A stretch of DNA of 56,598 nucleotides from Halochromatium roseum (GTDB taxonomy: Bacteria; Pseudomonadota; Gammaproteobacteria; Chromatiales; Chromatiaceae): positions 1-56,598 of the forward strand of contig NZ_NHSH01000086.1 in NCBI RefSeq assembly GCF_016653315.1, read 5' to 3'. Of this stretch, positions 11,227 through 52,269 are shown piece by piece; within the stretch, counting starts at the first letter, position 1, and each line of letters opens with the position of its first letter. Under the pieces are notes generated by a model that was not told the DNA's origin, made no database searches, and saw only the letters and a list, made by a program, of their open reading frames with translations. The position numbers and the translations under genes are program-made.

Positions 11227-11237
<11 letters not shown>

Positions 11238-14200
11238 GCATCGCGGGGCCGGTTCTCCTCGCCGTTGGCCGGCGCATCGCCTCCACCGCCTGCTCGCCAC
11301 CTCAGCACTCGCCATCACCCCGCCTACAGCCGCGCTTGCCGATGCCGGCACTGGCGTCGGCGCACTCGCACCGGTCGCCTTCATCACCTGGGCCATCAGC
11401 ATTGGCGTCAGCATCGCGCTCGCTCTGGCGCTGCTGCGACGGCTGCGCCGCGGCAGCGAGGATCATCTGATCGAGCGGCGCGGCCTCATGCTGTTGGCAC
11501 TGACGCTGGCGGGCCTGTTCCTAGCGCTGGCACTGGCACTGGCGCAACAGGGATTGAGCCAGATCGATCAACGCCTGCGCGCCGACAAGGCCGAGACGCT
11601 CTGGGCGATGAATCGCGCCACAGAGCAGGCGATGCAGATGTGGGTCGATAGCCACCAGCGCGAAACCGAGCGCATCGCCCATGATCCACAGCTGCAGCCA
11701 CTGCTCGGGGCCTTGCTCGCGGCCGCCGAGGCGCCGACCCCGCTGCGCGACAGCCCAGCACTGACGCTGGCGCGCGAGCGCCTAGCCGAGCACCGCAACC
11801 TCAGCAACGCCGAGGATGTGTTTCTCCTCTCGCTCGAAGGCCGAGTGCTGGCCGCCGCCAAGCCGGGATCGCTCGGCGAGCTCCATCCGATAGCCCGCTG
11901 CAACCCGTTCGACTTCGCCCGGCTGTTGAGCGGCGAACGCCTGTTCATCCCGCCCAGCGCGCCGAATCAGGAGAAGACCGACGCTGACTGCCTGCCGCAA
12001 GCGCTGTTTCTGCTCGCACCGGTCAAGGATGCTCAGGGGATGCGCGCCTTGCTCGGCCTGCGCTTGGCCCCGGAACAAGCCCTGCGGCAGATTACCGCGT
12101 TCGGACAGCTCGGCCGCAGCGGCGAGACCTATCTGTTCGATACGCGCGGCCATCTGCTCACCCCCTCGCGCTTCGAGCAAGCGCCAGTAGCCGGATTCGA
12201 GGTCACCCCGGGCCTGCGCATTGCCGACCCAGGTGGCGATCTGTCCCGTGGCTTTCAGCCCAGCAACGCACCCGAGACCTGGCCGCTGACCCGGATGGCG
12301 CAGGCCGCGCTGCAGGCCGAGGATGGCATCGACGCCCAAGGTTACCGCGACTATCGCGGCGTGCTGGTGATCGGCGTCTGGAGCTGGTCCGAGACGCTCG
12401 GGCTCGGTATCGCCACCGAGATGGATCTGGATGAAGCCCTGGAACCCTATCGCGCCCTGCGCACTCCACTGCTCAGCGCCTTGGGCGGCGTGGTGCTGCT
12501 CGCTTTGGGGCTGATCGTCGCCCTGATCTGGCTCGGCGAGCGCGCCCGCGGCCGTCTCAACGAACTGGTCGAGGAGCGCACCCATGACCTGCGCAAATAC
12601 GTTCAGGCGGTCGAGCAGAACCCGCTCTGCATCATCGTCACCGACCACCAAGGCACGATCGAGCACATCAACCCGACCTTCAGCCAGATCACCGGCTACA
12701 GCGCCGAGGAAGCGCTCGGCGAGAATCCGCGCCTGCTCAAGAGCGACAACACCCCGACCGAGACCTATGAGCAGCTGTGGTCGACCATCCTCAGCGGCCA
12801 GACCTGGCATGGCGAGCTGTGCAACCGCAAGAAGAACGGCGAGCACTACTGGGTCTCGCTGTCGATCGCGCCGGTCGCCGACGAGACCGGGCAGATCACC
12901 CACTTCGTCGGCATCGCGCAGGATCTCACCGCGACCAAGCAGATCGCGCTGGCGCTGCGCGAGGCCGAGATCGCTCGCAACCTCGCGCTGGATGCCGCTG
13001 AAGTCGGTCTTTGGAGCGGTGATCTGCTGAGCAACCGCTGGAGTTGGGACATACGCGTCGCGCAGTTGCTCGGTCTGCCGGAAGACCAGCCGGCGACGCT
13101 CGAGGGCTGGATTGAGCGTATCCATCCCGAGGATCGCGCCTGGGTCCTCGCCGATTTCGACGCCAGCCTGCGTGGCGAGCGTCCGCTCGAGATCGAATAC
13201 CGGGTGTGCTGGCCCGATGGCAGCGAGCACGTCATCGCCGCCCGCGGCGGCACCAGCCTGGACCAGCAAGGCCGGCCAATCCGCATCGACGGCGCCGCCT
13301 TCGACCGCACTGCCCTGCGTCGCGCCGAGGCCGAGAGCGAGGCCGCGCGCGAGCGTAATGCGCTGATCCTCGACTCCGCCGGTGAGGGCATCATGGGCCT
13401 GGATCTGGAAGGCACCATCAGCTTCTGCAACCGCGCCGCCGGCGAGCTGCTCGGTTATGCACCGGAGGCGCTGATCGGCCTGCCACTGCATGCCACCCTG
13501 CACGATCGCGATGCCGACGGCCACCCGTTCCCAGAGGCCGACTGCCCGATGAATCGCACCCTTGCCGACGGTCAACGGCGCCGCATCGAGCAAGACCTGC
13601 TGTGGCGCCAAGACGGCTCGGCGCTGCTGGTCGAGTACGCGATGGTGCCGATGCGCAAGGCTGGGCAACAGATCGGTGCCGTGCTGGTGTTCAGGGACAT
13701 CGCCGAGCGCGTCAGTGCTCAAAACGCCTTGATCGCCGAGCGTCAGCAGCTGCAGAACATCCTCGACTCGAGTCCGTTGAGCGCGGCCATCACGGTTGGC
13801 GGCACCATCCGCCTGGCCAATCCGAGCTTCCAGCAGGCCTTTTCACTCTCGGTTGGCGACTCGGCCATCAACATCTACGCCGACCTCTCACAGCGCCGGC
13901 AGATGCTCGAGCGCCTGGAGCGCGACGGCCAAGTGACCAACTTCGAGGTCGAGATGCACCGCAACGACGGCAGCATCGGCTACATGCTGGCCAGCTTCGT
14001 CAAGCTCGACTACCACGGCGAGCCGGGCATCCTCGGCTGGCTGATGGACTTCACCGAGCGCAAGGCCGCACAGCAAGAGTTGGCGCAGGCACGCGATGCC
14101 GCCGAGGCCGCCACCCGCGCAAAATCCGAGTTCCTGGCCAACATGAGCCATGAGATCCGCACACCGATGAACGCCATCCTCGGCATGTCGCATCTGGCCC

Positions 14201-16629
14201 TGCAGACCGAGCTGAACCCGCGTCAGCGCAACTACATCGAGAAGGCGCATCGCTCGGCCGAGGCCCTGCTCGGCATCATCAACGACATCCTGGATTTCTC
14301 CAAGATCGAGGCTGGCAAGCTCGACATCGAGGTGCGTGACTTTCGGCTCGAGGACGTCATGGACAACCTCGCCAACCTGATCGGTCTCAAGGCCGAGGAG
14401 AAAGGCCTGGAGCTGTTGTTCGAGCTGCCGCCGGATCTGCCAACAGCGCTGGTGGGCGATGCACTGCGCCTCGGCCAGGTGCTGATCAATCTCAGCAACA
14501 ATGCGGTCAAGTTTACCGAGCCCGGCGGCGAGATCCTGATCCGGGTTGGCCTGGACCAGGAAGACGAGGCCCGCGTCTGGCTGCACTTCAGCGTCCGCGA
14601 CACCGGCATCGGCATGACCCCGGAGCAGCAGCAGCGGCTGTTCCAGTCCTTCACCCAGGCGGATAGCTCGACCACCCGCAAGTACGGCGGCAGCGGGCTG
14701 GGACTGGCGATCAGCAAACGGCTGACGGCGATGATGGGCGGCGAGATCTGGGTCGAAAGCAGCCCCGGCGTCGGCAGCTGCTTCCACTTCACCGCCTGCC
14801 TGGGCAAGCAGCGCGGGGTGCGCTCGCAGCGACGCCTAAAAGTCGACGATCTGGAGGCCTTGCGGGTGCTGGTGGTCGATGACAATCGCAGCGCGCGCGA
14901 GCTGCTGCAGTCGATGCTCAGTGCCTTCGGCTTCCAGGTCGAGCAGGCCGCCAGTGGCGCCGAGGCGATCGAGCGCCTCGAGCAGGCCAAGGGCCAGGGC
15001 GCCTTTGATCTGGTGCTGATGGATTGGAAGATGCCGGGCATGGACGGGCTGGATACCACGCGGGCGATCCAGGCCGATCAGCTCATCGCGCGCGCGCCAA
15101 CGGTGATCATGGTCACCGCCTACGGGCGCGATGAGGCGCAGCGCGCGGCCGATGGTCTGGAACTGGCCGGCTTCCTGACCAAGCCAGTGACCCCCTCAAG
15201 CCTGCTCGACGCCATCCTCAACGCCATGGGCCGCGAGGCGGTCTCCGATTCGCGCGCGGCCGATCAGCAGGAGGCGACCAGCGAGGCACTGGCGGCGCTG
15301 CGCGGCGCGCATCTGCTGCTGGTGGAGGATAATGCGATCAATCAGGAGCTGGCGTTAGAGCTGTTGATCACCAACGGCATGACCGCAGCAGTCGCGAACA
15401 ACGGACAGGAGGCGCTGGATCTGCTCGAGCAGGAGCGCTTCGACGGCGTCTTGATGGACTGCCAGATGCCGATCATGGATGGCTACGCAGCAACCCGAGC
15501 GATCCGCCAAGACCCACGTTACAAGAGGCTGCCGATCCTCGCGATGACCGCCAATGTGATGACAGGCGATCGCGAGAAGGCCCTCGCCGCAGGCATGAAC
15601 GATCACATCGGCAAGCCGGTGAAGGTGCGCGAGCTGCTCAGCACCATGGCGCGTTGGATCGAGGTCGAGAAGCGAGTTGAGAGGAGTGAGAAAGAGAGTA
15701 AGAAAGAGAGTGAGAAAGAGAGTAAAGAGAGAAGCGGGGAGAGGAGTGAAGAGAGCCTCATGAGCCCTGAGACGACGTCTGAGGGGACGAAGCCCATGGA
15801 CACGAAGCCCGTGGCGAGCCTGAATGCAAGCACTCAGCAAGCCGCCACGTCCCCACTCACACCTCACTCCTCTCAACTCACTCCTCGCTCTTCTCCACTC
15901 ACACCTCACTCCTCTCAACTCACTCCTCGCTCTTCTCCACTCACACCTCACTCTTCTCCACTCACTCCTCACTCCTCTCTACCAGGCATCAACATCGCCG
16001 CTGGCCTAGCGATCACGCAGCACAATCAGACGCTCTACCGACGCCTGCTGCGCCGCTTCGCCGAGACGCAAGCAGACTTTGCCGCGGACTTTGCCGCGGC
16101 GCAGGCGGCTCGGGCAGAGGACCCGGATGCCGCAACCCGCTGCGCGCATAGCCTCAAGGGCGTGGCGGCGAATATTGGTGCCGAGGGGGTGCGACGAGCC
16201 GCGGCGGCCTTAGAGGCGGCCTGTCAAGCGAGTGCCGATGATGGGCAGATCCAAGCGTTGGTCGCCGATACCCGCGCGGCGCTGCTGCCCGTGCTGGCGG
16301 GGCTCGAGGCGCTGACGCCTGCACCGAGCGCCAGGACTGGTTCCGAGACCTTTGGGGCCGGGATCGGGGCAGACTCCGCTGCGCTTGATGCGACGGCGCA
16401 GCCCGCTCTCGACCCTGCCACCTTGGTCAAAGAGCTCGCGCAGCTGCGCAGCCTGTTGGAGCAAGACGATACCGATGCCATCGGACTCGTGCGAAACCTC
16501 ACCGAGCAGCTCGGCGCCAGCCAGCTTGGTCAGGTCCTAAAACCGCTCGCCACCGCGCTCGAGGCCTATGATTTCGAGACAGCGCTGCAAGCGCTCGATG
16601 AGGTTGAGAATGCCATCCATGCCGCGTGA
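11227..16629 (+). CDS. Large membrane hybrid histidine kinase (Cache-like sensor, 4 PAS, HisKA, ATPase, 2 REC, HPt)
   Basis: An 1800-residue sensor kinase. Hydrophobic helices lie at about 20-36, 50-68 and 80-102, then an extracytoplasmic sensor to about 410 and a helix at 414-440. PAS domains follow near 456-575, 589-700, 710-830 and 842-950. HisKA carries His975 in [10 protein letters not shown], and the ATPase covers about 1078-1195. REC1 has Asp1266 ([11 protein letters not shown]), REC2 has Asp1411 ([11 protein letters not shown]), and HPt has His1641 (CAHSLKG). All phosphorelay residues are present, giving a full His-Asp-His chain. Between REC2 and HPt lies a ~105-residue Lys/Glu/Ser then Pro/His/Ser linker made of DNA repeats. 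It starts within the stop region of the upstream kinase and overlaps the next gene by 20 nt. The ligand is unknown. Confidence 0.92.
15674..15985 (+). repeat. In-gene inverted and tandem repeat: purine arm then amplified pyrimidine arm
   Basis: The 17-mer GAGTTGAGAGGAGTGAG at 15674-15690 starts a nearly pure purine tract to about 15750. Its exact reverse complement occurs at 15863-15879 and again at 15905-15921, inside a pyrimidine tract built on a 42-bp tandem unit. The arms could pair into a long stem. It is translated as the REC2-HPt linker. The second kinase carries the same structure at the same place, with shorter arms. Confidence 0.85.
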
Positions 16630-19600
16630 CAAGACCAGACAGCGTCAAGCGCAACGCGCTGGCGCCGATATGCACTGGGCGCCGCTGATCCTGCTGCCGT
16701 GGTCGTGCCGATTGCTGCCACGCTTGCTGCCGCGACGCCTGTTGCTGCAGCACCTATTGCCGCAACGCCGATTGCTGCCACACCTGCTGTCACCGCGACG
16801 CCTGACTTCACTCTGTCTGCTGCTACTCGCGTTCTCCACTGGCCCCGCGTTCGCGCAAGCGCGCGTCCTGCAAGTGGTCGGCGACGAGAATTACCCCCCC
16901 TATCTGTTCATCAACGCCGAGGGCGAGGCCGATGGCTACCTGGCCGACCTCTGGCAGCGCTGGTCACAGGCCACCGGCATCCCGGTGAACTTGCAGCCCT
17001 TGCAATGGGAACTGGCGCAGCAACGCCTGCTCGATGGCGAGGCCGATGTCATCGAGAACCTCTATAAGACCCCACAACGCCTGCCGCTCTATGCCTTTTC
17101 CGAGCCCTACGCCACCCTGCCGGTGGCCATCTATCGCGACCGTTCGATCGGCGGGCTGACCAAGCTCGAGACCCTGCGCGGTTTTCAGATTGGCGTCATG
17201 GAAGGCGATGCCTGCATCGACTGGCTGGCCAATCGCGGCATCCATAACCTAGTGCGCTACCAGGACTACCGGGCGGTGATCGAGGCCGCCAAGGCGCAGC
17301 GGATCAAGGTCTTCTGCATGGATGAGTACCCGGCCAACTTCTACCTCTATCAGCTCGATGCCCATCGCCAGTTGGTCAAGGCCTTCGCGCTCTACGAAGG
17401 GCAATTCCACCGCGCGACGCGCAAGGACGCCGCGGCCACCCTCGACCTGGTCGAACAGGGCATGGCGTCGATCCCCGCGGCCGAGATCGAGGCGCTGCGG
17501 CGGCAATGGCTGATGGAGCCGACCGACTATCGCCAGCATGCGGCACTGGCCCTGAAGGCGATCGCCGCGCTCAGCCTGACGCTGCTCCTGGTCGGCCTCT
17601 GGGTGATCTCGCTGCGTCGCGCGGTCGCCAAGCGCGGCGCCGAATCCGAACAGGCCAAGCAGGCCTTGCTCGAGCGCGAGGCGCAACTGCGCGCGCTCGG
17701 CGACAACCTGCCCAGTGGCTTTGTCTATCAATATCGGGTTGTCAACGGCCAGCCGGAGTTCTGTTACGCCAGCGCCGGTACCGAGCGCATCCTCGGCTTC
17801 AGTGCCGAGCAACTGCGGGCGGACGCGGATTGCGTGTTCGCGCGCATACCCGCGGAGGCGCGCGAGCGCAACGCCGCGGCCGGCGCCAAGAGCGCGGCGG
17901 AGATGAGCGATTTCTCCCAGCTGCTGCCGTTCGACCATCCGGATGGCCGACGACGTTGGCTGTTGATTCAATCTCGCCCGCGGCGCGGCGAAGACGGCAA
18001 CACCCTCTGGGACGGCATCACCCTGGATGTGACCAGCCAGCAAGAGGACAAGATCCGCTTCCGCGAGAGCGAGCAACATCACCGCCGCCAGCTCGAATCC
18101 CTGGTCGCCGAGCGCACCGCCGAGCTGCGGGCGAGTAACGACCAACTCGCCTATACCCAACGCGCGATGGATCGCGCCGGCATCGGCATCGCCTGGAACA
18201 ACGCCGATAACGGGCGCTTCATCTACGTGAATGATCAATGCTGCGCGCAGTTCGGCTACAGCCGCGAGGCGCTGCTGTCGCTGACCGTGAGCGACATCAA
18301 TCCCGAATTCACGCCAGATGATCTGCGTCAGATCGCCGAGCGCCTGCGTCAAACCCAGGACAGCCTGAAGATCGAAACGCTGCATCGGCGCCAGGACGGC
18401 TCCCTCTATCCGGCCTCGGTCACCATCTACCTGCAACGGGCAGGCGACGAGGAATGGTTCATCGCGTTCTTTGAGGATATCAGCCAGCGCAAGGCGCTCG
18501 AGGACCGACTCGCGCGCAGCGAGGAGCGGCTGCGCCTGGCGATCGAGGGCGCCAACATCGGCGTCTGGGAGTGGGAGATCAGCACCAATGAACTCTATTG
18601 GTCGGATTCCTTCAAGGCCCTGTTCGGCGTCGAGATCGAGGGGCTGGCCTCTTATGAGCTGTTCCTCGAGACCCTGCATCCGGAGGATCGTGCCGGCGTC
18701 GATGCAATGGTCCGCGCCTCGGTCGAGGCCGGCGCCCCCTATCAGGTCGAATACCGCATACAGCGCCCTGACGGCGAGCAGCGCTGGATCAGCGCGCTTG
18801 GCCAAACCTACCTCGGCGCGGATGGCAGCGCCCAGCGCATGGGCGGCATCGTGCAAGACATCACCGAGCGCAAGCTGGCCGAGGAGGCCTTGGCGCAGGC
18901 GCGCGATGCCGCCGAGGCGGCGACCCGCGCCAAGTCCGAGTTCCTCGCCAACATGAGCCATGAGATCCGCACGCCGATGAACGCCATCCTCGGCATGTCG
19001 CATCTGGCGCTGCAGACCGAGCTGAACCCTCGCCAGCGCAACTACATCGAGAAGGCGCATCGCTCGGCCGAGGCGCTGCTCGGGATCATCAACGACATCC
19101 TCGAATTCTCCAAGATCGAGGCCGGCAAGCTCGACATCGAGGCGACTGACTTCCGCCTGGAAGACGTGATGGACAACCTCGCCAACCTGGTCGGGATCAA
19201 GGCCGAGGAAAAGGGTCTGGAGTTGCTGTTCGAGCTGCCGCCCGATCTCCCCACGGCGCTGATCGGTGATGCGCTGCGCCTCGGGCAGATCTTGATCAAT
19301 CTCGGCAACAACGCGGTCAAGTTCACCGACCCCGGCGGCGAGATCCTGATCCGTGTCGGCCTGGAGCGAGAAGCGGCCGATCAAGTTTGGCTGCGCTTCA
19401 GCGTCCGTGACAGCGGCATCGGCATGACCGCGGAGCAGCAGCAGCGGCTGTTCCAGTCGTTCAGTCAGGCCGATAGCTCGACCACCCGTAAGTACGGCGG
19501 CAGCGGTCTCGGGCTGGCGATCAGCAAGCGGCTGACGCAGATGATGGGCGGCGAGATCTGGGTCGAGAGCACGCCGGGCGTCGGTAGCAGCTTCCACTTC

Positions 19601-21178
19601 ACCGTGCGCCTGGGCAAGCAACGAGGAATACGCTCGCAACGACGCCCGAAGATCGATGATCTCGAGACGCTGCGGGTGCTGGTGGTGGATGACAACAGTA
19701 CCTCGCGCATGGTGCTGCAGTCGATGCTCGGCGCCTTCGGCTTCCAGGTCGAGCAGGCCGCCAGTGGTGCCGAGGCCATCGCGCGCCTCGAGCAGGTCGA
19801 CGGCCAGAGCGCCTTTGACCTGGTGCTGATGGACTGGAAGATGCCCAACATGGATGGCCTCGACACCACCCGCGCGATCCAATCCGACCAGCTGATCGCG
19901 CATGCGCCGACGGTGATCATGGTCACCGCCTATGGCCGCGACGAGGCGCAGCACGCCGCCAATGGTCTGGAACTGGCCGGCTTCTTGACCAAGCCGGTGA
20001 CGCCTTCGAGCCTGCTCGATGCCATCCTCAACGCCATGGGCCGCGAGGCGGTGGCGGACTCACGCGGCACCGATCAGGAAGAGGCCACCAACGAGGCGCT
20101 GGCCAAGCTGCGCGGCGCCCATCTGCTGCTGGTCGAGGACAACGCCATCAATCAGGAGCTGGCCTTGGAACTGCTCAGCACCAACGGCATGAGCGCGGCA
20201 GTGGCCAACAACGGCCAAGAGGCGCTGGCGCTGCTCGAACAGCAGCGCTTCGATGGCGTGCTGATGGATTGCCAGATGCCGATCATGGACGGCTATGCCG
20301 CCACCCGCGCCATCCGCCAAGACCCGCGCTACCGCGACCTGCCGATCCTGGCGATGACCGCCAACGTGATGACCGGCGATCGCGAGAAGGCCCTCGCCGC
20401 CGGCATGAACGATCACATCGGCAAGCCGGTGAAGGTGCGCGAGCTGCTCGGCACCATGGCGCGCTGGATCAAGGTTGAGAAGCGAGTGGAGAGGAGTGAG
20501 AAAGCCACCTCTTCACTCACTCCTCACTCCTCTCCACTCACTCCTCACTCTTCTCTACCAGGCATTGATACCGCCGCCGGCCTCGCCATCACCCAACACA
20601 ATCAGGCGCTCTACCAGCGCCTGCTGCAGCGCTTCGCCGAGACCCAAGCTGATTTCGCCGGCGACTTCGCCGCCGCGCTGGCGGCCAGGGCGCAAGATCC
20701 AGAGGCGCACACCCGCTGCGCGCATACGCTCAAGGGGGTGGCTGCCAACATCGGCGCCCAAGGTGTGCGCGAGGCCGCCGCGGCGCTCGAACAGGCCTGT
20801 GCCAGCGGGCAGGACGAGGAGAGGATTCAGGCCTTGCTCAAACACACACTGGCGGCACTGGACCCGGTGATTGCAGGGCTGCGGGCGCTTGCGACGGCTG
20901 ACGCCTCCGCGGCCTCTTCCGCGGCTTCTTCCGCGGCTTCTTCCGCTGCCGTCAGCATCGATCGAGCCGCCCTCAACGCGTCACTCAAGCAGCTGCGAGG
21001 TCTCATGGAGACCGACGATATCCGCGCGCTCGAGGTGATCTCGGCGTTGCATGAGCAACTCTCGGCAACGCCCCATGCCAGCGCCTTCAAGCCCATCGCC
21101 AAGGCCGCGGAGGCTTACGACTTCGAGACGGCACTCAAGGCCCTCGATGAACTCGAGCGCCGTCTAGACCGCGCTTGA
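16610..21178 (+). CDS. BvgS/EvgS-like hybrid histidine kinase (periplasmic SBP_bac_3 sensor, 3 PAS, HisKA, ATPase, 2 REC, HPt)
   Basis: About 1522 residues from the ATG at 16610, which has GAGG 6 bases upstream and overlaps the previous gene by 20 nt. An odd N-terminus of Leu/Pro/Arg repeats ([10 protein letters not shown]-type) precedes a normal-looking signal segment ending AFA near residue 80. A periplasmic solute-binding (SBP_bac_3) domain spans about 85-300 ([24 protein letters not shown]), then a membrane helix at 311-338. PAS domains lie near 360-480, 514-630 and 640-755. HisKA has His784, REC1 Asp1075, REC2 Asp1220 and HPt His1372. The HisKA-to-REC2 part is collinear and near-identical with the preceding kinase, so the pair arose by duplication with replacement of the sensor. 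A small-molecule ligand is likely. Confidence 0.92.
20484..20539 (+). repeat. Short form of the purine/pyrimidine inverted repeat
   Basis: GAGTGGAGAGGAGTGAG at 20484-20500 is exactly complementary to the 17-mer at 20523-20539, separated by 22 bases. It sits 4810 bases from the matching point of the upstream kinase, just after REC2. The third-position difference from the first copy (GTT to GTG, matched by AAC to CAC in the other arm) is compensatory, so pairing is preserved in both genes. Confidence 0.85.
20905..20950 (+). repeat. 12-bp tandem repeat within the HPt region
   Basis: Units of TTCCGCGGCTTC recur about three times (two perfect, flanks imperfect), coding for an Ala/Ser repeat (AASSAASSA-type) between helices of the C-terminal HPt region of the second hybrid kinase. 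Confidence 0.8.
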
Positions 21179-21307: not shown

Positions 21308-24004
21308 TCAACAGCCTGCCACGGTCGAGGCCGGCTCCGGCTCAACCCCAACCCGGTTGCGCCCCTGCTGCTTGGCGCGGTACAGGGCTTGATCCGCACG
21401 GGCTTGCAATTGGCTCAGAGTGGCCTTGGCATGGCCATCATTGTGCGTCGCCACGCCGAGACTTAAGGTGACCACCTTGGCAAGGCTGGAGCCAGCATGG
21501 GGGATGGCTAAGGCCTCCACCGCCGCGCGCATCCGCTCGGCCAGATGGCGCGCGCCCTGGTGATCGGTTTCTGGCAACAGGGCGATGAATTCCTCGCCAC
21601 CATAGCGCGCCACCAGATCGAGCGGACGCTCGCAAGATGACTTCAGCACGCTCGCCACCTGTTTGAGACAGACGTCGCCAGCGGCATGACCATAACGGTC
21701 GTTGTATTGTTTGAAGTGATCGATATCGATCATGATCACCGATAGCGGCAAACCGACGCGTTGCGCCCGCTGCCATTCCATTTTAGCCCGCTCATTGAAA
21801 TGGCGACGATTGGGGATCTCGGTCAGACCATCCTGCCTAGAGAGCTTCTCGAGCAGATCCGTCTTGATCCTAAGCTCCTCGGTGACCAGCGTCCGTTTAA
21901 CAATCTCATTTTCCAACGCATTATTGGTCTCACGCAACACCGCTTCGGCTTCTTTGCGTTCGCTAATATCCTGTTGGATGCCAAACCAGCGACTATCGCC
22001 ATTATCAAAAAACAGTGGGCTCGATTCGATCAGCATATAGCGCACCTCACTGCCAACGATCACCCGTCCCTCCCAGCGAAACTGACTTTTTTGCTCGATC
22101 GCCTGCTGATTACAGCGTTTGAATGCCTCCAGATCATCGGCATGGATGACATCAATGGCAACCGTTTGATCAGCCAACACCGCCTCGCGGGAGAGTTGAT
22201 TCATCGCGCACCAGCCATCGCTGACATACTCGAAATCCGCGCCGCCATCGCCGCGATGCCAAAACACATAGACGCCGACCGAAACATGGTCGACGAGATC
22301 GTTGAAACGGCGCAAGCTTTCCGTCAAGGCCGCTTCGGCACGCTTGCGATCGGTGATATCGGCGAGGACACCTTCCCACACCGTGCTGCCATCGGCGAGG
22401 GCGCGGGGGAAGGATTCAGCGGTGATCCAGCGGATCTGCCCATCAATCAGTAGTCTGGTTTCGCCAAAAAAGGGCGCCTTCTCGGCAAAGGCCTTGGCAT
22501 TGAGCGCGACCCAGTCATCAAAGTCGTCGGGATGCACGCAGGCGAAGGCGCGCAACGGATCGGAAGACGCATCGGCGCGGCTGAGACCGGTCAACTCCAG
22601 GAACCGGCTGCTCATGAAGGCAAAATTGGCCATGCCACCCGCGGCCGGTTGCACCATGGTGTAAGTGCCGATCGGGATGTTTTCAGTCAAGTCGTAGGCG
22701 GTCTTCTCGAGCCGGGCCTCGGCCAGGCGGAGTGCCTCCTCGGCCGATTTTTGCGCGCTCTGATCATAGAGATAGCTGCGCATCGCGGTGACCCGACCGG
22801 CTTGATCACGCACCAGAATGGTAAAATCATATAGCCACAGAAACTGCCCCTTGCCGGTCCGCAGCCGATAGGCTGTCTCGAAACGATCCCTGCCCTGTTC
22901 AATGTTGTTTTGCAAATCAGCGAGTATCGAGGGCGAATCCTCCGGATGGATCAGGCTGCGGTAACTGAAATCCGCATCCAGCAGGTCCGCCGTCCGGTAA
23001 CCAAGGATCTGCTCGACGTTCGAGGACACATAAACCAGCGTCCATTGGCCTTTTGGTTCAGCCCGCCATTCGATCGTGAAGATGGGCCCCGCGGCAAACA
23101 GATCGCGCTCTTTTTTGAGCGTGTCCGTGGCCTTTCTGGTCTTGGCGAGCAAGAACACGATCAGCGCGACGAAGATCAGGATCGCCGACACGACGGCAAG
23201 ATAGAGCGACATCAGCGGGGCGCTCAGGACCGAGTAGCCGCTCCAGCCGTTTGCGGGGATGGCGCCCAACTGCCAACTACCGTCGGGCAGGTCGATGGTT
23301 TGGGTGACCGGCTCACGCTCGAACACCGAGGCATCACCAAAAAACACCTCACCCTCCGGCCCGCGCGCATCGCGACCTCTGAGGCTGATGCGCAGTTCGC
23401 CATCATTCGCCATGATCCCAGCGCCAGCAAGGATCGACTCCAGATCCATGACCACCGACGCAAACCCCCAAAATCGCTCCCGTCCCGATGCCGGATCAGG
23501 GACATGAATGGGAATGCGGGCAATCACGCCCTGGCCGCCCTGTACCAGCGAGAGGGGGCCGGCGAGCACGATCTTGTTGAGCGCTAGCGCGCGGCGCACG
23601 GCTGTAATCTGAGCAGGCTGCTTTCTGTAGTCCAAGCCCACCGCCGCTTCATTCCCCTGCAGCGGGTACACGAGGCGAATGACCATCTCCCTGGCAAGGC
23701 CGATATTGCGCAAATCCGGTTTTTCACGAAACGGCACCGCCATGGCGCGATTGAAATCCTCCTGCGTCAAGTCGGGATTCATCGCCACCAGTGATTTGAC
23801 GCCGGAGACGGCATAGATATTGGCGTAGATGCGCGCCTTGAGCGCCGCGGTGCGCCGTTCCAACTGCCGCTTGACCTGCTCGATCTCGCGTTGTCGATGG
23901 CCTTCGGCCTCAAACTGAAACAGCTGTGTGCCAATCAGCTCGAACAGGCTCAACAGCACCACGAACAGTACGATCGCCATGCTGGTGAGATTGATCGGTT
24001 TCAC
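21308..24004 (-). CDS. CHASE-PAS-PAS-PAS-GGDEF diguanylate cyclase
   Basis: About 898 residues from a GTG at 24004, chosen because GGAG lies 10 bases upstream and the first membrane helix (MAIVLFVVLLSLFEL) follows at once; the frame is open to 24121. A CHASE-type extracytoplasmic domain spans about 35-265, a second helix 277-300 (YLAVVSAILIFVALIVF), and three PAS domains about 320-430, 450-570 and 590-690. The GGDEF domain ends the protein. GGEEF at 802-806 is an active-site form, and RPLD at 793-796, exactly five residues before it, is an intact product-inhibition I-site. It should make c-di-GMP, opposing the HD-GYP regulator in the same island. It converges on the hybrid kinase genes. Confidence 0.92.
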   Translation of the reverse strand: MKPINLTSMAIVLFVVLLSLFELIGTQLFQFEAEGHRQREIEQVKRQLERRTAALKARIYANIYAVSGVKSLVAMNPDLTQEDFNRAMAVPFREKPDLRNIGLAREMVIRLVYPLQGNEAAVGLDYRKQPAQITAVRRALALNKIVLAGPLSLVQGGQGVIARIPIHVPDPASGRERFWGFASVVMDLESILAGAGIMANDGELRISLRGRDARGPEGEVFFGDASVFEREPVTQTIDLPDGSWQLGAIPANGWSGYSVLSAPLMSLYLAVVSAILIFVALIVFLLAKTRKATDTLKKERDLFAAGPIFTIEWRAEPKGQWTLVYVSSNVEQILGYRTADLLDADFSYRSLIHPEDSPSILADLQNNIEQGRDRFETAYRLRTGKGQFLWLYDFTILVRDQAGRVTAMRSYLYDQSAQKSAEEALRLAEARLEKTAYDLTENIPIGTYTMVQPAAGGMANFAFMSSRFLELTGLSRADASSDPLRAFACVHPDDFDDWVALNAKAFAEKAPFFGETRLLIDGQIRWITAESFPRALADGSTVWEGVLADITDRKRAEAALTESLRRFNDLVDHVSVGVYVFWHRGDGGADFEYVSDGWCAMNQLSREAVLADQTVAIDVIHADDLEAFKRCNQQAIEQKSQFRWEGRVIVGSEVRYMLIESSPLFFDNGDSRWFGIQQDISERKEAEAVLRETNNALENEIVKRTLVTEELRIKTDLLEKLSRQDGLTEIPNRRHFNERAKMEWQRAQRVGLPLSVIMIDIDHFKQYNDRYGHAAGDVCLKQVASVLKSSCERPLDLVARYGGEEFIALLPETDHQGARHLAERMRAAVEALAIPHAGSSLAKVVTLSLGVATHNDGHAKATLSQLQARADQALYRAKQQGRNRVGVEPEPASTVAGC

Positions 24005-24142
24005 AGGGTTATTGCTCCGCAGGCCCTGAGATTGCCGCGACTCATTCGTCGTGCACGGGCAATCCCAGCCTAACAGCTGGGGACTGGATAGCGACCAGGC
24101 AGGGCGGATGGATACCACCACGTTCAGTCAAACCGTCCATGT

Positions 24143-27100
24143 TCAGGGCCTGTCCGCCTGCCCATTTGCAGATGGGTCAAGCTCGGTTTGATCGGCCCGC
24201 TCGGCTCGGTCTGCCCGCTGTTGGGCACGCAACTCGCTCAGTAGGGCCAATGCCTGCTCGTAGTCGAAGTCGCCGATGTGCTGCTCTAATCGATGCAGTC
24301 GTTCACCGAAGGCCGCACTCAATAGCGGTCTCGCATCCGCAAACAGGCGATTGGCCTCGGTGTCGTCATTCGACAGCAGACAGGCTAGCCGATCAAGCTG
24401 AACAACGAGCTGCTGATATTGGTCATCAGCCACAGCCCCCGCGGCGACCGCACACGAGCCTTGTTCAGGAGACCGATCCAGGGGCACTCGATGGACAGCG
24501 GCACAGAAGGACTGCAGCGCCAATCCCAACTGCTCGATCGGCGCCCGCAACCGCTCCGGATTGAGCCCCATACGCGCGGCCTGCTCAATATCCGCGGCAT
24601 GGTAGCGAATGCGATCGGCCGCCAAGGTGGCAGCAACGCCCTTTAGCGCATGCGCTAAGGGTGTGATAGCCTCCCAATCACCCGTTTGCAAGCACTGACT
24701 CAGGCGCTCCGCATCCTGCCCGTGATCGTCAACAAAGCGATGCAACAGCCGACTGTAGTGGCGACTATCGCCACGCAGCCGGCGCAGTCCATGCTCGACA
24801 TTGAGTCCAGGCACCTCAGCCAGCATCCGTGCCACCGCACCGGCGGAGGCATCATTCACTGCAGGCGGGCGCTGGGACGCACTTGGCCATGCATTTGGCC
24901 ATGCATTTGGCCATGCATTTGGCCGCTCATGTGGCCTCATCGTTGACGCGGCGCCAGGCGAGGCGCCTAGCGGCGTCGCCGAGTGGCCTTGGGGCAACCA
25001 CTGCTGCAGGGTCGCGACCAGCACATCCGGCTCGATCGGTTTGCCGATGTGCGCATCCATACCGGCCTCTAGCGAGCGTTGCCGATCCGCCTCGAACACA
25101 TTCGCCGTCATGGCCACGATCGGCACCCGCTGACACCCGGGGAGGCGACGAATCTCCCGCGCCGCCATCAAGCCATCCATCACCGGCATCTGGATATCCA
25201 TCAGGATCAGATCAAAATTGTGCTCGCGCACCTGTGCAACCGCCTCGGCACCATCTGCGGCAATCCTGACGCGATGCCCGAGCGCCTCGATCAGCTCGCG
25301 CGTCACCTCTTGATTAATCGCATGATCCTCGACCACCAGGATGTCAGCGGAGATCGACTCGGCGGCGGGATGGGTCCGGGATGGATGGGCCCCGGATGTG
25401 CGCATCGCATCCGGCTGCGCCTTTGCATTCGCCTGGGCCTGAGCCTGGATCTGGTTCTGAGCCTCCTGCAGCGCGGATTGCAAGGTATCGCAGAGCTTGG
25501 AGGCGGTTACCGGCTTGGCTAACACCTGGGTGATCCCTGCTGAGGCCGCCAGATCCGTCGGCAGCTCATCGCCAAAGGCGGTCACCAGGATGCACCCCGG
25601 CACCTGCCGCAGTGGCAGCGCCTGGATACTCTGCGCGGTGTCGATGCCGTCCATCTCCGGCATGCGCCAATCGACCAGCACCAGATCGAACGGCTGCCCA
25701 AGGCGGTCGGCCTTGAGGACCGCGCTCAGCCCGAGCGCGCCGCTGGCCACCGCCTCCGCCCGCACCTGAAAGGTCTCGAGCAGTTGCACCAAGATCTCGC
25801 GATGCGCGGGATCATCATCGACCACCAGCAGGCGGCGCTCTTGCAGCCGCGCCAACAGAGACCCCTCTGATTGCGCTGAGGCAGCGGGCTGAAACGGGAT
25901 CTCGACGGCAAAACAACTGCCCTGCCCCGGCTCGCTGCGCACCCGGATCTGCCCGCCCATCAACTCGCACAGCCGCTTGCTGATCGCCAGCCCCAGGCCG
26001 GTGCCGCCATAGCGCCGCGTGGTGCTGGCATCGGCCTGCTCGAAGGCCTGGAACAGGCGCGAGCGCTGCTCCTCGCTCATGCCAATGCCCGTGTCGCAGA
26101 CCTCGAAGCCGAGCCGCAGCGCAGTCTGCGCGGTCTTTCCGCCCAGTCTGGGCGTTTCAGGCAGTCCGGGCTTTTCGGGCTTTTCGGGTCGTCTGGTCTG
26201 ATCGGTCTGGTCGGGTCTGGCCGTCTGTCCGGTTGGCGCGGTTGACGCAGTTGACCCGGTTGAATGAGTGCGCGCCGCCGGCTGCCCCGCATCGAGCAGG
26301 ACGCCTTGGATCGAGACCTCGCCCATCTCGGTAAACTTGGCCGCATTGCTGAGCAGATTCAGCATGATCTGCCCAAACCGGGTGCTGTCGCCGCGCACCC
26401 GCAACGGCAAGTGATCGAGATCGATGCGCAGCTCCAGGCCTTTGTTGATCAGGGTCGGCGTCACCAGGGCGCAGACATGGTCAATGATCCGTGCCGGTTC
26501 GAAGTCGTCTTCTTGGAGTTGGATCTTGTCGGCCTCGATCTTCGACAGATCCAGCACATCGTTGATGATATGTAACAGATGCTGCGCCGAGGCCGAGAGC
26601 TTCTCGAGCTGCTGCGACTGCCGAGGGGTGAGCGGATCACGACGCATGAGATGGGCATAGCCGATGATCGCGTTCATCGGCGTGCGGATCTCATGGCTCA
26701 TATTGGAGAGGAACGCCGACTTGGCGCGATTGGCGCTCTCCGCGGCGGTCTTGGCGGCCTGCAGATCGATGGTCCTTGAGGCGACCAGCTCTTCGAGATG
26801 CAGCCGGTATTCATCGAGTTCGCGCTCCCGGCGCTTGCGCTCGGTGATGTCCTGCCAGACCCCAGAGATCATCTGGCGGCCGTCATGCTCGACCAGCCGG
26901 AAGGTGAGATTGACATCCAGAAGCGAGCCGTCCTTGTGCCGCATCCGACTCTCGAAGCCACGGATCTCGCCGGCGAGGATGGCGCGGATATTGTCGGCGA
27001 TGGTCTCCGGATCATGCTCGGCCTCGAAGTCCCGGACCCTGAACCGGGCGAACTCGGCGCGACTGTAGCCCAACCCCTGGCAAGCGGCATCGTTGAATTC

Positions 27101-27529
27101 GAGGATGCGCCCGGTCTCGGGCTCGGCCAGCACGATGGCATCGGTGGTCTGCCCGAACATGGTTTCGAGCAACGACTCGCGCTCACGCAGACGCTGTTCG
27201 ACCGAGGCCTGCTGGGTGATATCGCGCACCGCCACCACATGGCGCCCAGAGGCGGCGAGCGCACCAAAGCGCGCCTCGAAACGATGCAGCCCCGCGGGCA
27301 TTGGCAGCTCGTACTGGAACGACACCCAACGCTCACCCTCGCGCGCGCGCCGAAGCGCGTCAGCAAACGCCGGGCCGATCTCCGCGGGCAGCACCGCCTG
27401 CGGCGTCTTGCCCAGGAAGACCTCTGGCGGCACGAACAACTCACCGGTCTCGGCCTGATAGAAGTCGACGATGGTGCCGTCGGCCTCGAGCACGAAGATC
27501 AGATCAGCCGGTGCCGCGTGTTCTGTCAT
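24143..27529 (-). CDS. Soluble hybrid histidine kinase (2 PAS, HisKA, ATPase, 2 REC, HPt)
   Basis: An 1128-residue protein without membrane helices. PAS domains lie near 8-105 and 120-230. HisKA has His279 in [10 protein letters not shown], followed by the ATPase to about 560. REC1 has Asp620 ([11 protein letters not shown]), REC2 Asp778 ([11 protein letters not shown]), and HPt His960 (LAHALKG). The relay set is complete. Two foreign-looking stretches stand out: a Thr/Pro/Gln/Lys-rich insert of about 45 residues inside the ATPase domain (around 26130-26265, PEKPEKP-type), and an Asn-Ala-Trp-Pro repeat before the HPt. It is divergent in sequence from the two tandem kinases and lies 138 nt upstream of the GGDEF gene on the same strand, possibly co-transcribed with it. 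The PAS domains suggest a cytoplasmic cue such as redox or a bound cofactor. Confidence 0.92.
24883..24930 (-). repeat. 12-bp tandem repeat in the REC2-HPt linker
   Basis: Three perfect TTGGCCATGCAT units and one imperfect unit (plus-strand notation). They encode an Asn-Ala-Trp-Pro repeat in the minus-strand hybrid kinase, at the same inter-domain position at which the two tandem kinases carry their repeats. Confidence 0.85.
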
Positions 27530-31172: not shown

Positions 31173-31288
31173 TGCTTGAAAAACCCGTTGTACGCGCGGG
31201 TGCAGGCAAACAGCACCCGATCTGAATCAGTTGGGGGAGAGACTACCAGACTCGCCTCACTCTGGCGCTCGATGCACGAGACTCATGG

Positions 31289-31360
31289 CTCATGGCCTGG
31301 CTCATGGCTTGGCTCATGGCTTGGCTCATGGCCTGGCTCATGGCCTGGCTCATGGTCTGG
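31289..31360. repeat. 12-bp tandem repeat (CTCATGGCCTGG), six units, upstream of ileS
   Basis: Six contiguous units with only C/T variation at two positions, plus partial units on both flanks (31283-31372). It lies between the end of the AbiEii-like gene and the ileS start, so it is the likely 5' leader region of ileS. No gene is supported in this 206-bp gap. Confidence 0.9.
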
Positions 31361-31378
31361 CTCATGGCTCACTGAGCC

Positions 31379-50263: not shown

Positions 50264-52269
50264 CCGAGCTGAGCCTTGCACCCTTCCCTCTCCTGCGCCT
50301 GCCGCTCGCGCCTTTGCTCTTCGCAGCATTGCTGTGGCCGCTGCTGCTGAGCCTGCGCGCCGCACTCGGGGCGACGATCAGCCTTGGCCAGCTGCGCCCT
50401 CACCTGAGCCGCCCCCTAAACCAGCCCCTAAACCAGCCCCTAAACCAGCCACTAAACCAGCCACTAAACCAGCCACTAAGCCAGCCCTCGAGCCGATCCC
50501 TGCATCGGCCACTGGACTGGCTCTGGATCAGCGCGCCCTTGCCAGCGCTCGCGCTCGCCGTGCTGGGTCCAGACGGCAGCCTCTGGCTGGAGGCCTGGCT
50601 GCTGGGAGGCTACTGGGAGCTTGATGACCAACGCCGCTTGCTGCTGGCCTTCAGCGCCCTGCTGTGGGGACTGGCGGGCTGGTACGCACGCGGCTACTTC
50701 GCCGCCGAGCAGGCCCAGGCCGCGGCCGGCGACCGGGACAGCCGCTCGCGCCTGCTGCGCTTCGCGCTGTTCTGGCCGCTGACCCTCTGCGGCAATCTGC
50801 TGCTGCTCGTCGCCGAGGATATTGCCAGTTTCTACCTCGGCTTTGCGCTGATGACCTTCTCGGCCTACCCGCTGGTGATCCACAACGGCAGCCGCGAGGC
50901 GCGCACCGGCGGCTTGGCCTATCTGGTCATGGCTGTGCTCGGGGAAGGGATGATCCTGGCTGGCCTGCTGTGGGGCGCCGGCACCGGCTCGGCGCTGACC
51001 CTGTCGGAGCTGCGCGCGACCCTGGCGACGGCGGACATGGGCCTCTGGATGGGGCTGCTGCTCTGGCTCGGCTTCGGCGTCAAGGCCGGGGTGATCGGTC
51101 TGCACCTGTGGCTGCCATTGGCGCATCCGGTCGCACCGACGCCCGCCAGCGCCGTGCTCAGTGGCGTGATGATCAAGGCCGGACTGGTCGGCTGGCTGAG
51201 CACGCTGCCACTGGGTATGGCCGGTGTCGATCAATCCTTTCACGGGTTGGGACTGGCGATGCTGGTGGCTGGTCTAGTCGGCGCCTTTGCTGCAGCCTTG
51301 TGGGGCGTCGCGCAACGCCACCCAAAGGCGGTGCTGGCCTATTCCAGCGTCAGCCAGATGGGCATGCTTGCGGCCCTGGTCGCGATCGGCCTGCTAAAGC
51401 CTGACAGCTGGCCCGCGCTCAGCGTGCTGCTGCTGTTCTTCGCCGCTCACCACGGCTTGAGCAAGGGCGCGCTGTTCCTCGGCGTCGGCATCAGCGAGCA
51501 GCCGCCGCGCTTACCTGCCTGGCTGCTCTGGACGCTGCTGATCCTGCCAGCGCTATCGCTCGCCGGCGCCCTGGGCTCCGGCCTGATCGCCAAATGGGGT
51601 ACCAAGAAGGCGCTCGAGGCTGCTGGGGAAGAGACTCTGGCCTTCTGGCTGAGTCTAGCGACCGTCGGCACAACGCTATTGATGGCGCAGACGCTGTGGC
51701 GGCAATGGAGGCAAGGGCTGCAGCATGCACCGACCGCAACCGATGATCGACGTCTTCTCGCATCCATGCCGCTGGCCTGGTTGATCAGCGTCCTCGCCGC
51801 ACTCAGCCTGCCACTCTGGTTCAGCTGGCTCGCGGGCGGGATCGAAGGCGTGCTCTCAGGCCGACTCGCGGGCAGATTCGCCTGGCCTCCGCTCAGCGCG
51901 CTCCCGGCCCTGCTCTGGCCGCTGGGGCTCGGGCTGCTGTTATCGCTCGCGCTCGGCTGGAGCCTGCGCCGAGTCGCGCCGCGGCTGAGCGACTGGCTTC
52001 CCGCCGGCGATCTCTGGTGGCCATTGGCCTTCTGCGGCCGTTGGCTGTGGCGTCTCGCCCGTAGACTGCTGCAAGGGCTAGCGAGTCTGCAAGCGGCCTG
52101 GGTCGCTTGGTGGGTTGCGCGCGAGGGCGATGGCTTGGCCGGCTTGGATACGCTGACGCGCGCCGAGGACTGGCTGCGCCGCCAGTTGGCGCTGTTACTG
52201 CTGGCCGTCGCCCTAATGTTGGCCGCTGTGCTGTTGCTCAGCGCCAAGAGCAGGCTGCTGTGGCCCTGA
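50260..52269 (+). CDS. Proton-conducting transporter subunit (HyfB/NuoL-like), third of three
   Basis: A 669-residue membrane protein. Near the N-terminus, residues ~51-76 are a Asn-Gln-Pro-Leu repeat encoded by 12-bp units, followed by the channel domain. The helix-7 block GVKAGVIGLHLWLPLAHP has the Lys and His, and VMIKAG follows. In the helix-5 block FYLGFALMTFSAYPL an Ala stands where the other two subunits have Glu, so this half-channel may differ mechanistically. Extra helices and a basic linker at the C-terminus recall the NuoL/HyfB extension. The start ATG at 50260 overlaps the previous stop. No gene follows for 165 bp. Confidence 0.85.
   Translation: MTELSLAPFPLLRLPLAPLLFAALLWPLLLSLRAALGATISLGQLRPHLSRPLNQPLNQPLNQPLNQPLNQPLSQPSSRSLHRPLDWLWISAPLPALALAVLGPDGSLWLEAWLLGGYWELDDQRRLLLAFSALLWGLAGWYARGYFAAEQAQAAAGDRDSRSRLLRFALFWPLTLCGNLLLLVAEDIASFYLGFALMTFSAYPLVIHNGSREARTGGLAYLVMAVLGEGMILAGLLWGAGTGSALTLSELRATLATADMGLWMGLLLWLGFGVKAGVIGLHLWLPLAHPVAPTPASAVLSGVMIKAGLVGWLSTLPLGMAGVDQSFHGLGLAMLVAGLVGAFAAALWGVAQRHPKAVLAYSSVSQMGMLAALVAIGLLKPDSWPALSVLLLFFAAHHGLSKGALFLGVGISEQPPRLPAWLLWTLLILPALSLAGALGSGLIAKWGTKKALEAAGEETLAFWLSLATVGTTLLMAQTLWRQWRQGLQHAPTATDDRRLLASMPLAWLISVLAALSLPLWFSWLAGGIEGVLSGRLAGRFAWPPLSALPALLWPLGLGLLLSLALGWSLRRVAPRLSDWLPAGDLWWPLAFCGRWLWRLARRLLQGLASLQAAWVAWWVAREGDGLAGLDTLTRAEDWLRRQLALLLLAVALMLAAVLLLSAKSRLLWP
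50414..50485 (+). repeat. 12-bp tandem repeat (CCCTAAACCAGC), six units
   Basis: Six contiguous units, the last three with C-to-A or A-to-G changes, coding for the NQPL repeat of the third channel subunit between its first helix and the channel domain. Confidence 0.9.

Follow-up and report, generated by a model that had tools for sequence, protein, structure and literature searches.

Two hybrid sensor kinases lie in tandem in the window, which is the whole 56,598-nucleotide stretch of DNA analysed here from the purple sulfur bacterium Halochromatium roseum, and both carry a self-complementary repeat in the linker between the second receiver (REC2) and the HPt domain. The locus raises the question of where this repeat came from and why it is longer in one kinase than in the other. 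A preliminary description of the same DNA had proposed either a structure under selection or a hairpin-forming element that copies itself.

The tandem kinases and their linkers

From HisKA to REC2 the two kinases were confirmed to be collinear at a constant offset of 4810 bp, with the His codons at 14149 and 18959 (CAT in both), the REC1 Asp codons at 15022 and 19832 (GAT and GAC) and the REC2 Asp codons at 15457 and 20267 (GAC and GAT). The linkers then differ by 234 bp (78 codons) as described earlier, and the sequence CTACCAGGC, which is common to both genes, follows the linker at 15979 and 20555 respectively. Kinase 2 is 1536 residues long when taken as the longest open reading frame, and its true start may lie further in. 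The features of both genes are collected in Table 1.

Table 1. Kinase genes, linker arms and HPt domains in the window
Feature	Position	Strand	Remarks
Hybrid sensor kinase 1	11227..16629	+	PAS domains, HisKA, HATPase_c, two receivers, long linker, HPt; 1800 aa
Hybrid sensor kinase 2	16568..21178	+	SBP_bac_3, PAS domains, HisKA, HATPase_c, two receivers, short linker, HPt
Kinase 1 purine-rich 5' arm	15667..15755	+	29 residues; 12-nt register at 15684-15755
Kinase 1 17-mer GAGTTGAGAGGAGTGAG	15674..15690	+	exact match also in the C29 IVP element and the HmaA array
Kinase 1 non-repeat loop	15756..15852	+	
Kinase 1 pyrimidine-rich 3' arm	15853..15979	+	six 21-nt (3 x 7) units; 14-residue peptide repeated
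HPt of kinase 1	16045..16248	+	residues 1607-1674; downstream of the linker
Kinase 2 purine-rich 5' arm	20477..20503	+	contains the 17-mer GAGTGGAGAGGAGTGAG at 20484-20500
Kinase 2 pyrimidine-rich 3' arm	20508..20555	+	2.3 units of 21 nt; complement of GAGTGGAGAGGAGTGAG at 20523-20539
HPt of kinase 2	20618..20860	+	residues 1351-1431; downstream of the linker

In each linker a purine arm is accompanied by its exact 17-base complement. A single complement per linker had been described. This is correct for kinase 2, but in kinase 1 the 17-mer is complemented exactly at two places (15863-15879 and 15905-15921), since the 3' arm there consists of a tandem array of 21/42 nt. As 21 nt equals three units of 7 nt, the kinase arms are themselves tandem heptamer arrays. 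As read directly from the sequence, the array sets the distance between REC2 and HPt, as had been claimed. In a structure model of the kinase linker, a helix is predicted at 126-151 and residues 152-224 have a pLDDT below 50.

The complementarity was found to exceed codon-shuffled chance. In each linker the longest perfect stem measures 17 bp, a length that none of 200 codon shuffles per linker reached (shuffled maximum 10 for kinase 1 and 11 for kinase 2). In a variant of the test that allows self-overlapping matches, the shuffled maxima were 16 in kinase 1 (n=60) and 18 in kinase 2 (n=200). The predicted RNA folds gave z-scores of -3.49 (kinase 1) and -5.30 (kinase 2) relative to dinucleotide shuffles. 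Under a stricter control, where codons were shuffled inside each arm, kinase 2 remained at z -5.52 (0/200 as low) and kinase 1 was at z -1.92 (6/200 as low).

At least one arm was observed in all four kinases of two orthologous pairs, those of this genome and those of Lamprobacter, and the array length differs both between paralogues and between species. The whole linker of Lamprobacter kinase A folds end to end (z -2.69, 1/200 shuffles as good); with arm-internal codon shuffles this becomes z -1.67 (12/200), which is weakly beyond the effect of purine- and pyrimidine-rich codons, and its arm-pair score is 12 versus 19 in the window genes. Lamprobacter kinase B is without a 3' arm (fold z -1.34). 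The preliminary description had taken unrelated linkers in related genomes as evidence against a shared paired element, and such linkers were found in all homologues read apart from the two tandem pairs: six homologues of other genera and four within the genus (L003, L011, L017 and L025), one in this genome, are free of arms. Selection at the protein level, where repeats are kept since a longer linker alters the access of HPt to the receivers, would fit the in-frame registers kept in all four kinases and the position of the linker exactly between the last receiver and HPt. However, lengths vary widely and one Lamprobacter copy has lost the 3' arm, so that no particular linker length has been kept, and we consider this explanation highly improbable.

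Copies of the arms elsewhere in the genome

The 17-mers are not private to the kinases. In the same genome, both arms occur around a four-helix-bundle (23S-rRNA-IVP/S23) gene, and the 17-mers are also found in the HmaA helicase gene, in frame in a DEAD/DEAH helicase and at the end of a hydrogenase-protease gene. The C29 IVP element, the ORF of which matches the 23S_rRNA_IVP profile at 115 bits and the RNA of which folds at z -5.79, has an exact match to the 17-mer of kinase 1 in each of its arms (C29:6708 and 7096). Two further exact matches to this 17-mer lie in the HmaA array (C29:3032 and 3077). The 17-mer of kinase 2 is exact at C36 and, as the complement, at C83. Each linker thus contains a purine arm and a reverse complement of a repeat family that is dispersed in this genome, and one copy of this family encloses an IVP gene. 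The proposal of a hairpin-forming element that copies itself is supported by these occurrences with and without an enclosed gene.

A second in-frame two-arm copy was found at C36 in an unrelated helicase gene, in the same register as in the kinases (KQRVERSEKKVELTPLIPSS), and two homologues show a 17-residue gap at its place. No relative of the C36 stretch was found in viral contigs. The HmaA array was rejected as a two-arm copy as it has the pyrimidine arm only (arm-pair score 7, shuffled maximum 10); single arms therefore spread or persist as well, and simple slippage could account for this. Such single-arm arrays are in frame in HmaA and in a type IIG-like methylase (G007). The pattern GGAGTGAG-N6-36-CTCACTCC occurs at 3 places in this genome and at none when reversed, but over all 96 genomes the counts are 5 and 2 (both reversed cases in G057), so the pattern does not establish polarity outside this genome.

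The arms in the kinases enclose no ORF, and these copies are in frame. No trace of an IVP gene was seen in the loop of the kinase linker, and such a gene may thus never have been there. When 15740-15862 was searched against 8 genomes of the genus, the only matches besides itself were the two orthologous Lamprobacter linkers, giving no sign of a separate mobile unit, and the loop was rejected as mobile cargo.

The arm versions of kinases 1 and 2 are two genome-wide variants. The difference between GTT..AAC and GTG..CAC, earlier described as a compensatory change, is present but can stem from two source copies, and compensatory evolution in place is not the leading reading since both variants are found elsewhere in the genome. 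This bears on the suggestion that the linker mRNA forms a hairpin under selection, tuning translation, RNase III cleavage or co-translational folding of REC2-HPt, with arms that co-vary to keep the hairpin. The strong folds of both window genes and of Lamprobacter kinase A, the pairing beyond arm composition (clear in kinase 2, weak in kinase 1 and Lamprobacter A) and the matched GTT..AAC and GTG..CAC pairing are all consistent with it. We nevertheless regard it as unlikely, given the variants elsewhere, the arm-free homologues and the 3' arm dropped in Lamprobacter B. As to the earlier claim of a structure under selection, the end-to-end fold of Lamprobacter A goes only weakly beyond what codon composition gives. 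With the hairpin partly retained in one Lamprobacter orthologue and an arm gone from the other, the pair speaks neither clearly for nor clearly against selection on the hairpin.

Ordinary slippage would instead have the charged low-complexity and Ser/Thr/Pro linkers growing independently, with complementarity being a by-product of purine- and pyrimidine-biased tracts. The 12- and 21-nt tandem registers of kinase 1, the variable array length among paralogues and species, and the large part of the fold energy already obtained by arm-internal codon shuffles in kinase 1 and Lamprobacter A would agree with this, as would the disordered in-frame repeats produced by Borg tandem repeats in the available text of PMC9879509. 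Slippage on its own is very unlikely, however, to account for exact 17-mers common to the IVP element, HmaA, C36 and C83, for a stem that codon shuffles did not reach or for the same two-arm insert in an unrelated helicase.

Elements enclosing IVP genes and the pglZ-brxL junction

IVP genes were observed between complementary, mostly heptamer arms in 60 of 79 scored loci at a score of at least 12 (40/55 in the first set, 12/16 held-out and 8/8 plasmid loci), and the remaining 19 are without arms at this threshold. Among the controls, this score was reached at 7 of 480 random positions, at 6 of 209 positions taken from the same loci and at 0 of 30 ParE loci. The loci are best profile matches and not a random draw, with some close relatives among them (L212 and L037 are the same Lamprobacter element), and the plasmid set consists of 8 scored loci from 23 plasmid records with a match. 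Five of the 31 loci from two fetches were left out of the 55-locus set as partial, fused or below the cut-off (L122, L141, L142, L143 and L150, scoring 11, 8, 7, 8 and 10); together with these and the plasmid locus L303, which scored 17, the count becomes 61 of 85. Among the 16 held-out loci, 8/9 outside the family of the window and 4/7 inside it reached the threshold, although L217 did so with a 6-nt repeat and not with heptamers.

The armed elements belong to PF05635 and have a median length of 460 nt. Identity at lag 7 of at least 0.8 was found on at least one side in 21 of 55 loci and on both sides in 8, compared with 0 of 480 random positions. The 5' arm is richer in G than in C in 52 of the 60 armed loci and poorer in 7. 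No rRNA was detected at Rfam gathering scores in the 79 loci (about 1.5 kb on either side) or in the window. A frame other than that of IVP is kept open in only 2 of the 60 full elements (control: two or more open frames in 114/800 random stretches); read-through in the host frame was therefore rejected as a rule and in-frame capture is the exception.

The presence or absence of such elements could be compared at the BREX pglZ-brxL junction, which in 13 genomes contains a short spacer only (5), an IVP element (5) or a GxxExxY element (3). For example, the L233 junction, measured to pglZ, has an IVP element, whereas at L239 and L240 the interval is about 1.1 kb and includes a GxxExxY gene along with additional hairpins. 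In two of the three GxxExxY junctions, 3-4 arms-only hairpins lie beside the element. No target-site duplication was seen by eye at these junctions. The comparison of empty and occupied sites points to mobility of the element.

Template switching, where an old imperfect inverted repeat copies one arm onto the other, could give concerted changes through quasipalindrome correction with neither selection nor mobility. Among the 26 elements that have three or more distinct units, 23 score higher than the shuffled mean for mirrored order of their irregular units, and an element tends to carry its own variant in both arms (same-element mean 17.4, cross-locus 8.6); the arms of L231 at the BREX junction, for example, score 63 with each other and at most 9 with the other four. 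On the other hand, the L234 left arm fits the L230 right arm (34) better than its own (20), and the process leaves the same arms at unrelated genes and the empty and occupied junctions unexplained. As the full account it is somewhat unlikely, but it can act together with the reading preferred below as a means of arm upkeep.

Origin of the linkers and comparison with known systems

Taken as a whole, the kinase linkers are probably arms-only, in-frame copies of an IVS-like hairpin element that were later reshaped by slippage. The starting event would have been the insertion of an arms-only copy into the ancestral kinase, between REC2 and HPt and in a register where the TGA of GAGTGAG is not read as a stop; the flexibility of the interdomain linker at this position may be why it was tolerated. 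Translation of the purine arm would then give a charged, predicted helical stretch and that of the pyrimidine arm a putatively disordered Ser/Thr/Pro stretch. During the tandem duplication or later, the copies would have drifted apart through slippage that preserved the frame (in steps of 12 nt in the purine arm and 21 nt in the pyrimidine arm) and through exchange with other family copies, which together may have produced the two arm variants and the 78-codon difference. By their anatomy, the full elements appear to be relatives of the 23S rRNA intervening sequence outside rRNA, and in operon mRNA their hairpin would probably serve as a processing site of the RNase III type. No earlier description of the element was found in the open literature searched.

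As in the 23S rRNA intervening sequences with an S23p/IVP ORF, for example that of Coxiella in the available part of PMC4990558, complementary ends surround the IVP ORF in the armed loci. Unlike those sequences, none of the 79 loci lies in rRNA; the sites are between or inside protein genes, and the kinase copies have the arms in frame without the ORF. Rickettsia palindromic elements, according to the accessible text of PMC10969869, are dispersed palindromic repeats of about 150 bp that lie in frame in unrelated protein genes, are tolerated in the protein and encode a conserved peptide. Compared by this description, a palindromic repeat is likewise in frame in several unrelated protein genes here (the kinases and the C36 helicase), but the arms are simple, heptamer-type, variable in length and related in sequence to those of a gene-bearing element.

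Direct repeats of the heptamer TAACTGA occur in Beggiatoaceae, Thiocystis, cyanobacteria and Bacteroidetes, mostly between genes and in some cases in frame in ORFs, with suspected mobility; the portion of PMC4679880 consulted describes one inverted case and no IVP link, whereas complementary arm pairs surround IVP genes here. Borg tandem repeats also create disordered protein regions in frame, but neither a hairpin partner arm nor an associated gene is described in the same available text of PMC9879509. In addition, PF05635 resembles the Avd accessory protein of diversity-generating retroelements in the excerpt seen of PMC10053308; the C29 protein gave weak matches below the curated cut-offs to bAvd (22 bits, cut-off 40) and Avd (22.8 bits, cut-off 80).

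A broader reading, which we consider about as likely as not, is that these elements belong to a widespread bacterial group of small hairpin elements. Each would consist of a single small gene flanked by complementary arrays of 7-10-nt repeats, either a four-helix-bundle IVP with heptamer arms or a GxxExxY nuclease-like gene with arms of roughly 8-10 nt. They would be sited in operon junctions, perhaps above all those of defence systems, and would also give rise to arms-only copies and to in-frame capture as new linkers in proteins. On this view, the 23S rRNA intervening sequence would be the special case in rRNA and many unexplained heptamer arrays would be their arms. Such a reading links rRNA intervening sequences, unexplained heptamer arrays and in-frame protein palindromes, which stand apart in the literature compared, and offers a testable source for the heptamer arrays. 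It also gives the IVP family outside rRNA a candidate role in hairpin maintenance, RNA processing or mobility. For the kinases, the linkers suggest that a mobile hairpin can become protein sequence, and they would thereby mark a route from a mobile hairpin to the interdomain linker of a signalling protein.

Paired arms in the kinase linkers

Both tandem kinases were confirmed to share an offset of 4810 at the three phosphorylation residues named in the preliminary description. Their linkers lie between the second receiver and HPt and differ in length by 234 bp, and the exact 17-base complementary arms reported there were recovered from both. The resulting stem, 17 bp in each kinase, is longer than codon usage would give by chance: none of 200 codon shuffles of each linker reached it, and the arm-pair score is 19 in each kinase, with codon-shuffled maxima of 10 and 8. 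The RNA folds of the linkers also beat every dinucleotide shuffle (0/100 and 0/200 as strong). A shuffle of codons confined to each arm, so that its purine or pyrimidine bias stays, still left kinase 2 far outside the shuffled range (0/200) and kinase 1 less so (6/200). Kinase 1 is set apart from kinase 2 by a purine arm that is longer and follows a 12-nt register, by a loop spanning 97 nt and by a pyrimidine arm built of six 21-nt units. Neither register breaks the frame, and a 21-nt unit equals three heptamers. In the AlphaFold model of the kinase 1 REC2-linker-HPt region (mean pLDDT 72.3), the helix at residues 126-151 covers the purine arm and residues 152-224 are of very low confidence.

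The same tandem pair was observed in Lamprobacter modestohalophilus, where kinase A has a purine arm plus a diverged pyrimidine arm and kinase B a purine arm only, with arm-pair scores of 12 and 9 (codon-shuffled maxima 10 and 9). The RNA fold of kinase A gave a z of -2.69 (1/200 as low) and that of kinase B -1.34, and kinase A was the least exceptional of the three kinases in the within-arm codon shuffle (12/200). Since arms are present in this pair too, the insertion probably predates the split of the window species and Lamprobacter. Unrelated linkers in related genomes would speak against a shared paired element. The Lamprobacter orthologous pair carries arms; ten homologues outside the tandem pairs have arm-free linkers, six by alignment from other genera and four within the genus (L003, L011, L017 and L025), one of them from the window genome.

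Coordinates of the kinases, their arms and other features
Feature	Location	Remarks
Kinase 1	window 11227-16629	17-mer at 15674-15690
Kinase 2	window 16568-21178	17-mer at 20484-20500
Third hybrid kinase	window 24143-27529	two receivers, HPt; adjoins tandem kinases, opposite strand
CHASE-PAS-GGDEF protein	window 21308-24121	adjoins tandem kinases, opposite strand
Tandem array GCATTTGGCCAT x4	window 24879-24936	12-nt unit, unlike heptamer arms
Tandem array TGGCTCATGGCC x7	window 31286-31368	12-nt unit, unlike heptamer arms
Tandem array CCCCTAAACCAG x6	window 50413-50487	12-nt unit, unlike heptamer arms
HmaB-like frame	L030:5714-6727 (window genome, contig C29)	345 codons between stops, open through entire IVP element; frame differs from that of IVP gene
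GAGTGAG/GTGAGTG array, first locus	L031:1900-2050	single array between two genes, near-identical in the window genome and genome G007
GAGTGAG/GTGAGTG array, second locus	L033:2000-2110	counterpart of L031 array
AAGGCTG heptamer array	L038, around 2000-2200 (Lamprobacter, contig C52)	long; near a CTCACTC array

Copies of the arms in the window genome

When the kinase-1 linker was searched against the window genome (5.17 Mb in 88 contigs), arm-like matches beyond the kinases appeared at several places on contig C29 and on C83, and a longer query added C33. The kinase-1 17-mer occurs exactly in both arms of an element on C29 and twice within the array of the HmaA helicase gene, while that of kinase 2 is exact at C36 and C83; the C83 array starts where a HycI-type protease gene ends. 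Judged by these sequence matches, the kinase arms are members of a dispersed repeat family. Of the two readings proposed earlier, a hairpin element that is copied is supported by this dispersal of the same arms. The other, selection on the kinase hairpin, is neither favoured nor disfavoured; the hairpin is still present in three of the four kinase copies of the two pairs.

The C29 element encloses a small ORF, flanked by GAGTGAG-type and CTCACTC-type arms, inside a DUF1156/HmaB-type methylase frame. This ORF is a 23S_rRNA_IVP gene (PF05635, TIGR02436; solved relative 2gsc). Residues 3-163 of the HmaB-like frame match the 973-position HmaB model, plus a second stretch whose place is not given. 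A second IVP element, with TTAGTGG arms, separates the pglZ and brxL genes of a BREX system, and a third IVP match (C62) is partial and, scoring 11, lacks arms by the score used.

Copies within reading frames were also observed. At C36 a DEAD/DEAH helicase has a two-arm copy inside its long open frame, and the register matches that of the kinases (KQRVERSEK, against EKRVERSEK in the kinases); two helicase homologues have a 17-residue gap at this position. Single in-frame arms occur as well, a pyrimidine arm in HmaA and a purine arm in a type IIG-like methylase from genome G007. The TGA inside GAGTGAG closes one of three registers, and as read from the sequence, both two-arm coding copies (kinases, C36) use the AGT GAG register and so escape it. 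Hosts of elements or arms include defence genes or operons (HmaA/HmaB, BREX, the type IIG-like methylase, cas6-cas4 twice and cmr2-cmr3) as well as the DEAD helicase, at loci L030 and L120 (window genome, C29 and C28), L198, L203, L204, L221 and L035.

IVP and GxxExxY elements as a class

Flanks were compared by a fixed local-alignment score at 55 IVP loci; searches within the window's family supplied 26 of these, and searches of its phylum the other 29. Scores of at least 12 were found in 40/55 and of at least 14 in 33/55. The corresponding counts were 7/480 and 0/480 for random positions in 80 other loci, 6/209 and 3/209 for random positions within IVP loci, and 29/550 and 18/550 for mismatched flanks of different loci. 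At unchanged thresholds, a later set of 16 loci gave 12 and 10, its nine members outside the window's family accounting for 8/9 and 6/9. All eight plasmid loci, of which seven are cyanobacterial and one is from Gemmatimonadota, scored at least 14. Arms were found at 0/30 ParE genes of family genomes, used as a control, and no rRNA match was found near any of 79 IVP loci. The two arms of one element agree down to irregular unit order (23/26 above the shuffled mean), which says that they are made or maintained together, by selection or by copying.

A second, unrelated protein family, GxxExxY (PF13366), occupies the same kind of hairpin. Complementary arms reached at least 12 in 25 and at least 14 in 24 of 30 loci (L243-L272), compared with 11/240 at the higher threshold for cross-locus flanks. 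The arm units include ACACAGATG and CGCAAATGAA; a lag of 8-10 nt fits best in 21/30, a figure without a control, and at L244 a long inverted repeat of differing look accounts for the score of 89. A GxxExxY gene adjoining a reverse transcriptase appears in the available part of PMC8934634.

Probable insertion sites and known systems

Thirteen genomes (L230-L242) were compared at the pglZ-brxL junction; pglZ lies upstream in all, though only 31% identical in L242. Five junctions are nearly empty (spacers of 7-76 nt; L232, L235, L236, L237 and L241), five are occupied by an IVP element roughly 440-600 nt long (L230, L231, L233, L234 and L238) and three a GxxExxY gene, assigned by PF13366 in L242 and by frame resemblance in L239 and L240. 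These three genes are flanked by ACACAGATG-type arms (scores 22-28), and L239 and L240, with about 1.1 kb at the junction, carry four and three separate hairpins beside the gene, each arms-only and 67-95 nt long. The five IVP proteins share 59-80% pairwise identity. The two L231 arms match each other with a score of 63 and the other four elements with 9 or less; the arms of those four resemble one another, and the L234 left arm scores 34 with the L230 right arm and 20 with its own. This pattern would follow either from elements having inserted independently into a favoured spot or from joint replacement of both arms over time.

Element anatomy, shared sequences and presence or absence at a site are direct observations. 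The hairpin probably forms in RNA and is then cut as in rRNA intervening sequences (IVS), and arms-only copies probably arise or move with the aid of full elements. The closest described case, as far as the available part of PMC4990558 goes, is the Coxiella IVS, which has complementary ends, an S23p ORF, tandem heptamers and RNase III excision, as reported there from experiments. MacGregor 2015 described TAACTGA heptamers, some in frame, which the available part of PMC4679880 does not tie to IVP genes. In titles, abstracts and passages of the open PMC literature, no paper was found to connect IVP genes located outside rRNA with heptamer arms. The elements are best described as IVS-like hairpins outside rRNA, with capture in protein genes in the manner of Rickettsia palindromic elements. 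Because the DNA in the kinases is translated, the repeat can persist only if the protein tolerates it.
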